This document shows, in pieces, positions 5,617 to 11,353 of a stretch of 64,000 nucleotides of DNA (position 1 is its first letter; each line of letters opens with the position of its first letter). The notes beneath the pieces were generated by a model. That model was not told the origin of the DNA, searched no databases, and was given only the letters and a program-made list of their open reading frames with translations. A program made the translations under genes and the position numbers. The stretch spans positions 4,911,001 through 4,975,000 of the forward strand of contig NZ_CP008852.1 in the NCBI RefSeq assembly GCF_000725345.1, written 5' to 3'. The DNA is from Pelosinus sp. UFO1 (GTDB taxonomy: Bacteria > Bacillota > Negativicutes > DSM-13327).

Positions 5617-6306
5617 ATGATTGAGATCATCGCAACCACTGTAGAAGATGCAAAAAGAATAGAAGCTTCTGGTGCAGACCGAATCGAGTTGGTCAGTGCG
5701 CTAACGGAAGGTGGTCTTACACCGAGTTATGGGCTGATAAAAAAAGTGATAGAAAGTGTAAGGATACCCGTTAATGTAATGATTCGACCCCACGCGAAAT
5801 CATTCGTATATACAAATGATGAATTGAATGTAATGAAAGAAGATATCTTGATCGCCAAGGACTTAAAGGCAAATGGAGTAGTTCTAGGTACATTGGATAA
5901 AAATAATAGAATCTGTGAGAGCTCTCTAGCTAAACTGCTAGAAGTAAGCGGGGATATGGAAGTTACTTTTCATAGAGCCATTGATGAACTGGCTGACCCT
6001 GAAAAGGGTGTTATCGTGTTGGCTAAGTATTCACAGATAAAAAGGGTTCTTACTTCAGGCGGTAAAGGAGATATCTTGGATAATCTGCCCAGAATCAAAC
6101 AAATGATTGCCAATGGGGGATCGCTCCGAGTTTTGGTAGGCGGCGGGTTGAATTTAAGAAATATTGAACAAATTATTACCGAAACTAGGGCTCCAGAGTA
6201 TCATTTTGGCACAGCCATCCGTGAGAATACTTCTTCTTTTGGGGAAATCAACGCAGAAAAACTGGCATCATTAGTTACGATCGTCAATCAGTTTGGTTGT
6301 CATTAG
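5617..6306 (+). CDS. cutC: CutC-family copper homeostasis protein
   Basis: A 229-residue TIM-barrel protein of the CutC family. Signature segments are SGADRIELVSALTEGGLTPSYG, VMIRPHAKSFVY, TFHRAIDEL, VLTSGGKGD and VLVGGGLN, all at family-typical spacing. The start is ATG 5617 behind GGGAGG (5606-5611); the frame is open 23 codons further up but the family begins at this point. Members were linked to copper tolerance in E. coli, but the biochemical activity is not established. The gene follows the helicase closely and ends in a bidirectional hairpin shared with the convergent tRNA gene. Confidence 0.9.
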   Translation: MIEIIATTVEDAKRIEASGADRIELVSALTEGGLTPSYGLIKKVIESVRIPVNVMIRPHAKSFVYTNDELNVMKEDILIAKDLKANGVVLGTLDKNNRICESSLAKLLEVSGDMEVTFHRAIDELADPEKGVIVLAKYSQIKRVLTSGGKGDILDNLPRIKQMIANGGSLRVLVGGGLNLRNIEQIITETRAPEYHFGTAIRENTSSFGEINAEKLASLVTIVNQFGCH

Positions 6307-6307
6307 A

Positions 6308-6338
6308 AAAGGCTTCGCAGGTATACTGCGAAGCCTTT
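6308..6338. terminator. Hairpin between cutC and tRNA-Ala
   Basis: AAAGGCTTCGCAG (6308-6320) pairs with 6326-6338 around GTATA. Runs of A and T on either side let it act in both directions, for cutC and for the convergent tRNA transcript. Confidence 0.85.
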
Positions 6339-6347
6339 CATTTCTTA

Positions 6348-6423
6348 TGGTGGAGACGGTGGGATTCGAACCCATGACCTCTTGAATGCGAACCAAGCGC
6401 TCTCCCAACTGAGCTACGCCCCC
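6348..6423 (-). tRNA. tRNA-Ala (anticodon CGC)
   Basis: Reading the minus strand from 6423, a 76-base cloverleaf is visible including an encoded CCA end (6348-6350). The anticodon stem CTTGG/TCAAG encloses loop TTCGCAT, giving anticodon CGC for GCG codons. The acceptor stem GGGGGCG/CGTCTCC contains a G3-U70 wobble, the identity element of alanine tRNA. The T arm has TTCGAAT. One A-C mismatch lies at the base of the T stem. Confidence 0.9.
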
Positions 6424-6517
6424 AATGATAGTACTATTATACCATATAATTGGAAATATTTGATCAAATAAAATCAATAATTTTCCAATTTATATAATAA
6501 TGCATTTCAGTCCCAGG

Positions 6518-8959: not shown

Positions 8960-9128
8960 ATGAGAAAAGTCCGACTGGTAGGTGGGATTGGTTGAGCATC
9001 CACGCTGGATTACTACAAAGATCATCGAAAACTTAAATCTCGCCGAAATGTATTTCTATGCCACAATAATTTGGATGATAAGACACAACCAACGTCCCTT
9101 GTAAGATGTATGCAACAGCCATATAAGA
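8960..9128 (+). pseudogene. Aspartate/glutamate racemase 5' fragment
   Basis: With a good GGAGGTG site, ATG 8960 encodes MRKVRLVGGIG, then an in-frame TGA, then ASTLDYYKDHRK. This matches the start of the aspartate/glutamate racemase family (G-G-x-x-x-x-ST-x-x-Y-Y). The TGA sits where many members have tryptophan (SWEST) or proline. After about 25 codons homology stops; the final 50 bases match another locus at 12885. It is a dead fragment ending at a strong terminator. Confidence 0.6.
9077..9128 (+). repeat. Short dispersed repeat, copy 1
   Basis: About 50 bases beginning GATAAGACACAACCAACGT and ending CAACAGCCATATAA recur at 12885-12931 with a few changes and a three-base gap. Confidence 0.7.
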
Positions 9129-9131
9129 ATA

Positions 9132-9186
9132 AAATCCGTCTATAGCCTAGCAAAAGTAAAAGGCTGTAGACGGATTTATTTATTTC
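9132..9186 (+). terminator. Terminator after racemase fragment
   Basis: AAATCCGTCTATAGCCT (9132-9148) pairs with 9161-9177 with a single G-T type wobble, followed by a T-rich tract. Confidence 0.85.
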
Positions 9187-9296
9187 CTATAAAAAATTAA
9201 TCCTATATTAATGTTTTTCTGCGATGATTAATAAAGAAATGTTAAATAAATAGGGCAACAAAACAATGACCAGTACTATTAGATGAGGTGCACCGT

Positions 9297-9869
9297 ATGA
9301 AAGTAATAGCTGTTGATATTGACAATGTATTGAATAATTTTTCAGATACCTTAGGGCGTGCTACGTTTGTATATAATGATTCCTATGGCTTATCTCGTGA
9401 GGAATTTGATACATATCTTGATCTGGTAAAACGTGATGTTTTCCCTGAAAGCAAATTTTTGACGAGTAAGTTTTCCGATTTTCGTTATCGTATACATGAG
9501 CAGTGTTATGGCTTGGCACAGGCTAACCCGGACGGAGTAGAGTTTATGCATTGGCTAAAAGAGAATGGTTGGAAAGTCGTTATTTGTACAAAGCGAAATT
9601 TGCGTTTGACAGGGGAATGTACGAAAAAGTGGCTGCAAGACAATCACATTCCCTATGATTATTTTTTTATGGCCCTAAATAAAATTGTATTTTGTAAACT
9701 ATGGGATATACCCCATTTAATTGATGATGATATTTTAAATATTATTCATGGTGAGCAATATGGTATTAAGGTGTATTATCCTATTATGGACAAGCATAGT
9801 TCAGTTTTTTCCCATGCAGCAAAAGGATTTACCATATTTGAGGAGATTAAACAATGGATACAAGAGTAG
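9297..9869 (+). CDS. HAD-family 5'(3')-nucleotidase-like phosphatase
   Basis: A 190-residue HAD-superfamily hydrolase of the small NT5C/deoxyribonucleotidase-like class. Motif I is VDIDNVLNNF (nucleophile D7, acid D9), motif II the threonine in VICTKRN, and motif IV LIDDDI (metal-binding aspartates). A helical cap of about 70 residues separates motifs I and II, as in 5'-nucleotidases. The start is ATG 9297, six bases after GAGGTG; the GTG at 9288 overlaps that site. The stop lies 16 bases inside the next gene, which encodes a primase-like protein, so the two are almost certainly translationally coupled. That pairing suggests a role in nucleotide or nucleic-acid metabolism. Substrate not determinable. 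Confidence 0.75.
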   Translation: MKVIAVDIDNVLNNFSDTLGRATFVYNDSYGLSREEFDTYLDLVKRDVFPESKFLTSKFSDFRYRIHEQCYGLAQANPDGVEFMHWLKENGWKVVICTKRNLRLTGECTKKWLQDNHIPYDYFFMALNKIVFCKLWDIPHLIDDDILNIIHGEQYGIKVYYPIMDKHSSVFSHAAKGFTIFEEIKQWIQE

Positions 9870-10612
9870 AGCTGCTAGACGTATTTTATCAAACCATGCG
9901 TAAGGATAAAGTGAAAATAGAAAATAAGAAGTACGGCTTTGATTTTATCGATGAACTCATTGCCGATGATGTAACGCTGGATTATGGACAGATGGAAAGC
10001 AATTTTATCCACAAATACAGGTTGCTCAATGTCTCAGAGTCCCGCAGAAAGAAATTACTGCAAGGACATGTAAATCAAGATTATAATGTTTGCCTATATT
10101 TTGATGATACGGCAAATAACACGTTGTGTTTTAATTTGGACAATAACTTTAAAGCCAATAATAATGCGATCATACCGGAGATAGAGCTTGCCGTAGACTA
10201 CTTACAGCAGCATCTTGGAAAATACGGCATGGAGACGGTTAGTATTAAAAGTGGCCGGGGCTATCACCTGTGGTGTCGTTTTGAAACGCCGATTGCCAAT
10301 CAGCTGTTATTGGACTTTATGATTCGAATCGCCTCCAAGACATTGGCTTCATTACAGTATAGTAATCATGATTACCGTACCATTAAAATTAATATGAGTC
10401 CCAACCCAAAGTTTGTAAAGGTTTTATCACTACGTGCCTTCGGATCAAGGCATATCAGAACCGGTAGTTTTTCGCAGATTCGGACCAAAGACGGTGTCTT
10501 ACATGAAGAGGATTCCTGGAAGCACTTTAGCGACTATATTAAGAATAAAACCATTTCAGAACAACAATTTATGCGGGCATATAATGAACTGGCAAAAGAA
10601 ATCCCTTGGTGA
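9854..10612 (+). CDS. Putative archaeo-eukaryotic primase (AEP)-like protein
   Basis: A 252-residue protein I cannot assign to a named family. A segment resembles the AEP/PolDom catalytic core: TLCFNLDNN (residues 90-98, the position of hhDhD motif I, with the first acid replaced by Asn), a helix, then SIKSGRGYHLWCRFE (130-144), which matches motif II of TOTE- and LigD-type primases (SGxGxHxW). Further on, FVKVLSLRAFGSRHIRTG may correspond to the strand carrying motif III and the basic nucleotide-binding patch. The N-terminal 75 residues are helical and basic (SRRKKLLQGH). Overlap of 16 bases with the upstream HAD gene indicates a two-gene operon. If the acid loss is real, it may bind rather than polymerise nucleotides. 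Confidence 0.5.
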   Translation: MDTRVELLDVFYQTMRKDKVKIENKKYGFDFIDELIADDVTLDYGQMESNFIHKYRLLNVSESRRKKLLQGHVNQDYNVCLYFDDTANNTLCFNLDNNFKANNNAIIPEIELAVDYLQQHLGKYGMETVSIKSGRGYHLWCRFETPIANQLLLDFMIRIASKTLASLQYSNHDYRTIKINMSPNPKFVKVLSLRAFGSRHIRTGSFSQIRTKDGVLHEEDSWKHFSDYIKNKTISEQQFMRAYNELAKEIPW

Positions 10613-10982: not shown

Positions 10983-11353
10983 GTTATTACGGATGAAGAA
11001 AAAAAGAACAACTGCAAAACGCGGCCTTTAAGCAGTACAAGGTGCATAGTGCTTCTGCTGCTATATTAGTCTTAGGCGATAAATTAGCATACAAAAATGC
11101 AGAGAATATTTATTCAGGAATGCTCAGTTTAGGTATTATGGATAAATTAGAGTATGATAGCACAATTCAAGGCATAAACAATCTTTACGAAAGCGGGGGT
11201 GAAGAGTTTCAACGTACTGAGGCTATAAGAAATGCTTCTCTTTCGGCTATGATGTTTATGCTAATCGCAAAAGATGAGGGATGGGACACTTGTCCCATGA
11301 TTGGGTTTGATCCAGAGGAGGTTCGGCGGATTTTTAATATCCCTGAAAAGTAG
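10983..11353 (+). pseudogene. Nitroreductase-family protein, truncated and frameshifted
   Basis: From about 10997 the frame reads RKKEQLQNAAFKQYKVHSASAAILVLGD and ends DEGWDTCPMIGFDPEEVRRIFNIPEK, which is the middle and C-terminal half of a nitroreductase (FMN-dependent NAD(P)H oxidoreductase). The preceding codons TDEE are in another frame, so one base is gained or lost in the A-run at 10998-11005. The N-terminal 50-60 residues carrying the phosphate-binding SxRxF motif are missing, replaced by a terminator hairpin. A GTG at 11042 could start a 103-residue product, but it would lack half of the fold. Confidence 0.65.

Follow-up and report, generated by a model that had tools for sequence, protein, structure and literature searches.

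An overlapping gene pair encoding a predicted NT5C-type nucleotidase and a primase-like protein with an altered active site

The gene pair and its surroundings

The pair lies in a 64,000-nt stretch (the window) of the 5.1-Mb genome of Pelosinus sp. UFO1 (G000), with both open reading frames on the + strand. The upstream gene (9297..9869, +) encodes a 190-aa HAD-superfamily protein, a predicted NT5C-type nucleotidase in which D7xD9, T98, K129 and D143-D144 are all present, while the downstream gene (9854..10612, +) encodes a 252-aa protein with a predicted AEP fold, a putative pseudo-Prim-Pol carrying N94-x-D96, S133-GRGY-H138 and N180. The frames overlap by 16 bases (9854..9869, +), within which the HAD codons for QWIQE and the stop double as the AEP codons for MDTRV, bearing out the coupling proposed in a preliminary description of this DNA. 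The HAD frame starts at ATG 9297 and stops at 9869; its ribosome-binding site GAGGTG and spacer (9284..9296, +) are conserved in G006, G046, and G020a, and a longer form starting at GTG 9288 is possible. The AEP gene's own ribosome-binding site, GAGGAG, sits within the HAD gene, and each frame is preceded by a good site. Upstream of the pair, a terminator-like inverted repeat is predicted to form a strong hairpin (9125..9184, +; RNA folding z-score -7.5). This hairpin and the leader to the HAD start are common to the window, G006, and G046, one of the latter two belonging to another family, and an Rfam search of the hairpin returned no credible RNA.

At three loci from different families the HAD start codon is apparently ATA (L019:8646, L037:7131, and L038:11208-11210). 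In each of them ATG, GTG, and TTG are absent from the stretch between the upstream in-frame stop and motif I, and the ATA follows a ribosome-binding-like site. This arrangement suggests weak initiation, which would hold the HAD protein low relative to the AEP protein.

Genomic context indicates no single pathway for the pair. Most loci lie among ordinary housekeeping, flagellar, or signalling genes: the pair is found in the flgD/flgE operon (G046 and G020a), by a sulfotransferase gene (G712 and G713), by sugar-modification genes (G709), and by HD-domain signalling genes (G020b, G717, and G775a). At the inspected loci, no Cas1/Cas2 or CRISPR was recognised among the neighbours inspected and no ligase or Ku among those annotated or listed, and neither protein of the pair matched the PADLOC HMMs at E 0.01. 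One locus is of a different character. In G324, a PbeA-like helicase and two BrxD-like ATPases (L038:11286-16358) form a possible defence cluster, with a HepT/MntA-like pair across the HAD-AEP genes. The two G011 copies have mobile-element surroundings that include an integrase and a phage DnaC-like loader, and about 0.8 kb downstream of a G011 pair lies a second CAPP/TOTE-like primase gene (L021:831-2627, -; 598 aa, catalytic motifs intact), itself near the phage DnaC-like helicase loader. Recurrence near defence islands, which the preliminary description would have taken as support, therefore fails to appear as a general pattern, with one clear case (G324) and two mobile-element copies (G011) among 17 loci.

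The window itself holds further features around the pair. A small open reading frame at 6271-6477 (-) is a tRNA-Ala (CGC) gene and codes for no protein. In G006 the pair is flanked by this tRNA too, and the window carries two extra genes, for a PAP2 phosphatase and a PNPOx, between the tRNA and the pair. Searching for the insertion site gave a full-length match to the cutC-tRNA flank only in G006; the other congeners gave tRNA-like matches and no empty site. Just 3′ of the pair, positions 11042-11353 hold the C-terminal fragment of a truncated nitroreductase gene, an instance of the gene debris reported earlier for this region.

Distribution, coupling and selection

The two genes are inherited together. 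Homologues were collected from 17 loci, spread over 14 Bacillota genomes of two classes, with two copies each in G020, G775, and G011, and in 17/17 the HAD gene precedes the AEP gene on the same strand and overlaps it; no homologue lacking a HAD neighbour was found, and the recurrent pairing that the preliminary description would have taken as support is thus observed. The overlap is exactly 16 bases at 13 of the 17 loci, across families (in G770, one of the 13, the HAD gene contains an assembly gap and the overlap was read from the alignment), and measures 13, 19, 25, or 46 bases at the others. Among 100 relatives, HAD matches occur only where an AEP gene is present, in the same genomes and at the same places. 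The HAD and AEP gene trees are congruent in their well-supported groupings, and both genes are under purifying selection, with dN/dS of 0.07-0.23 for HAD and AEP genes alike.

Despite this linkage the pair is patchily spread, occurring in 10/380 genomes of the class and 2/8 of the genus. Single-sequence searches of genome contigs, viral contigs, phages, and plasmids gave no homologue, and searches of IMG/VR viral contigs, phages, and plasmids with profiles and divergent members gave no relative of the pair; matches in BFVD are ordinary viral primases with the same fold. No description of the pair was found in the literature searchable to us, mostly non-subscription papers.

The two encoded proteins

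Profile comparison and the predicted fold identify the first protein as a distant NT5C-type nucleotidase, in agreement with the nucleotidase assignment of the preliminary description. Its AlphaFold model (AF2 pLDDT 91.5) has a helical cap and a deoxyribonucleotidase-type fold; the best VIA match is the deoxyribonucleotidase-like 3bwv (Z 15.1), followed by human cdN (Z 13.5) with mdN nearby. Its nearest wider kin in profile alignment are stand-alone bacterial NT5C-family proteins (E 8.5e-20). The Pfam NT5C cut-off (PF06941, 24.8 bits) is not reached, the G793 partner scoring 17.5 bits and the window HAD protein giving no match. True HAD partners (E < 1e-20) are clearly separated from the stand-alone generic NT5C background (E 1e-14 or worse). 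Motifs I-IV (DxD, T/S, K, DD) are complete in G793 and in 13/13 members checked, and the catalytic residues are kept, where readable, at every locus except for two copies in G775. In 13/13 members the protein is also similar to phosphatases of the phage "polynucleotide kinase" families (phrog_415), so a 3′-phosphatase role is possible.

The two exceptional G775 copies (L091:7289-7819, +, and L092:7942-10239, -) have lost the catalytic nucleophile, in which D is changed to E or F, together with the DD/K motifs. The L092 copy makes up the C-terminal portion of a 765-aa protein whose N-terminal domain is a SAM methyltransferase. Because the nucleophile and DD/K are lost there, phosphatase activity would seem dispensable in some members, and the G775 pair may be a purely binding or regulatory unit.

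For the second protein, an AEP fold (two lobes with an RRM-like core) is well supported by modelling and by profile comparison. Its AlphaFold2 model, built with 13 homologues, is confident (pLDDT 92.3), and the fold search suggested in the preliminary description returned AEP structures and no non-AEP fold. Best Foldseek matches are CAPP structures (7nqe, E 1.5e-9), with LigD PolDom, Prim-PolC, and human PrimPol ranking next; in VIA-align the score against CAPP is Z 23.3 (rmsd 2.7 over 207 residues), and LigD PolDom (Z 13) and Pri1 score Z 12-14. A profile of catalytic AEPs, made from CAPP, TOTE, staphylococcal plasmid AEPs, and the G011 companion AEP, matches at 97% probability (E 1.6e-10). 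AEP-TOTE (PF22548) is the sole Pfam family matched, weakly, by 13/13 members tested (best E 4.5e-5). The window protein itself stays below curated cut-offs, scoring 20 bits against 27 for PF22548 (E 6e-4) and 13 bits against 200 for the CAPP equivalog NF040561, a model whose genome search returned chiefly weak hits on the N-terminal part, in what look like repeat proteins, and added little. A PDB sequence search gave a lone match, 4lnv, which we discarded as spurious.

Within this fold the active site is altered in every member. An intact AEP motif I normally reads DxD or DxE, and the NLD segment described earlier as standing at AEP-like spacing is indeed present, as FNLD at residues 93-96, but it is not an intact motif I: the first carboxylate is a fixed Asn, giving N94-x-D96 in 17/17 members. 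Motif II fares differently. The previously noted SGRGYHLW occupies residues 133-140, and the SxH-type nucleotide-binding motif S133-G-R/H-G-Y-H138 is found in 17/17. Motif III, whose acid in human Pri1 is D306, was placed by sequence alignment in two registers, N180 (ungapped) or K178 (gapped). In the ungapped register position 180 is N in 13 and T in 4 of the 17 members, and in the gapped one position 178 is K, F, Q, or N; an acid occurs in neither. D173 was considered as a third carboxylate and rejected, because the G775 copies have E or S there and the residue precedes the strand.

Comparison with characterized and catalytic enzymes places these changes at the catalytic centre. CAPP D177/D179/E260 align with N94/D96/N180 of the window protein, the sequence position of E260 being our own count from the alignment. 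In CAPP, D177 and D179 are essential metal-binding residues whose double mutant is inactive (PMC8211822), and E260 is a third catalytic residue that works with the A-site metal, motif I or III mutants being inactive (PMC10345425). A bridge to CAPP is provided by the G011 companion AEP, which matches CAPP at E 1e-15 and can be aligned closely to the family, reading CFDVD where the family has CFNLD or CFNID, SGGKGYHIW where it has SGRGYHIW, and HVEIRP where it has the IKINMSP strand.

Two of the three catalytic carboxylates being absent, the second protein is probably not an active primase. The preliminary label of primase-like protein thus stands for its fold and nucleotide-binding motif and falls short at the catalytic residues. 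S133, G136, H138, R194, and H200 are invariant in 17/17 members, and in human Pri1 the nucleotide triphosphate is held by the corresponding Ser, His, Lys, and His residues. A kept pocket with lost metal ligands is the pattern that would be expected of a nucleotide-binding pseudo-enzyme. Asn can on occasion help to bind metal, so residual catalysis by the AEP protein is possible.

Possible roles and related systems

The reading that we put forward, plausible though short of probable, is that a polymerase-dead pseudo-Prim-Pol binds a nucleotide or nucleic acid and controls its partner nucleotidase. The locus would then be a translationally coupled two-gene module of an NT5C-type (deoxy)nucleotidase and a pseudo-Prim-Pol which, having kept the primase fold and the nucleotide-holding residues and lost the carboxylates that place the metals, would no longer polymerise. 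Under this model the pseudo-Prim-Pol would bind either a nucleotide or the end of a nucleic acid and, complexed with the nucleotidase, would target or switch it, such that phosphate would be removed from (d)NMP or from nucleic-acid ends only under certain conditions. The new point is that the primase-like partner looks polymerase-dead, judging from its residues.

An alternative is that the AEP protein is an active if unusual Prim-Pol working with an end-cleaning phosphatase, the HAD protein removing 3′-phosphates and the AEP protein filling gaps, as in the LigD polymerase and phosphoesterase. The full AEP fold with its retained motif II, the LigD PolDom match, and the likeness of the HAD protein to phage polynucleotide-kinase phosphatases are all compatible with such a repair pair. 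However, the first and third catalytic carboxylates are missing in 17/17 members, the HAD profile is nearer to NT5C nucleotidases, and the neighbours annotated or listed showed no ligase or Ku, and we regard this explanation as very unlikely. Slightly less remote, though still quite unlikely, is a domesticated remnant of mobile-element replication that was kept as a DNA-binding regulator, with the HAD protein a structural partner or an unrelated metabolic step. In its favour, the replication modules of phages and plasmids often contain AEPs, the G011:C39 pair adjoins the catalytic CAPP/TOTE-like primase and the phage DnaC-like loader, and both G775 copies of the HAD protein are degenerate, one of them being fused to a methyltransferase. 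Such a remnant fits poorly with a strongly conserved nucleotide pocket and, in most members, a conserved HAD active site, and no relatives were found in the phages, plasmids, and IMG/VR contigs searched.

Among explanations that specify a purpose, the best is defence by nucleotide depletion, which we nonetheless consider unlikely. Here the pseudo-Prim-Pol would detect the replication of an invader or a change in dNTP pools, with the HAD protein depleting nucleotides or causing arrest, and so protect against phages or other elements. Consistent with defence are the patchy distribution, the varied places of the copies, and the occurrence of HAD proteins in known defence systems. So too are two contexts: in G324 the pair adjoins the PbeA-like helicase and the two BrxD-like ATPases, not far from the HepT/MntA-like pair, and in G011 an integrase and a DnaC-like loader lie near the copies. 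Most loci, however, are among housekeeping, flagellar, or signalling genes, PADLOC recognised neither protein, and the HAD protein is degenerate in two copies. The earlier idea of a defence module accordingly draws some weak support from the G324 and G011 contexts and none from the ordinary genes that surround most copies.

Returning to control of a nucleotidase by a polymerase-dead partner, its more specific form, that a primase fold has turned into a dedicated sensor of nucleotides or primer ends that switches a nucleotidase, making up an undescribed nucleotide-control or immune module, is doubtful at present. Primase-polymerases have been studied as enzymes. Were this form true, the Prim-Pol fold would have been reused for sensing or control, and the pair would offer an easily expressed two-gene test case for how cells police their nucleotide pools, a question that has come to the fore in phage defence with systems such as Clover and Chp.

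Several known systems resemble parts of the pair. CAPP from Marinitoga (PDB 7nqd/7nqe/7p9j) shares with the window protein the fold of the whole domain, motif II, and the basic and His residues that follow motif III, whereas the window protein is a stand-alone protein of 252 aa, paired with a HAD protein, and its family has N/D/N or N/D/T in place of D/D/E. With the AEP of TOTE conflict systems (PF22548) the family shares the weak Pfam match of all 13 members tested and the motif order, but the window protein lies under the curated cut-off, has Asn for the motif I Asp, and, compared with TOTE proteins of related genomes, is without the helicase part. NT5C 5′(3′)-deoxyribonucleotidases (PF06941; human cdN/mdN, 3bwv) have the same helical cap between motifs I and II and the same motif spacing as the HAD protein (Z 12.6-15.1), which differs in falling below the family cut-off and in always occurring in an overlapping pair with an AEP gene. 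Clover, which combines the dNTPase CloA with the regulatory nucleotidyltransferase CloB, follows a similar two-gene logic of a nucleotide hydrolase and a controlling polymerase-like partner (PMC12265719), although CloA is an HD-domain enzyme, CloB is active and of Pol-beta type, and neither is homologous to the pair. Finally, in the Chp CARF-HAD effectors of type III CRISPR, a nucleotide-binding sensor domain governs a HAD that cleaves ATP, dATP, and IMP (PMC12715507), in that case within one polypeptide with membrane helices and with a CARF sensor where the pair described here has an AEP fold.
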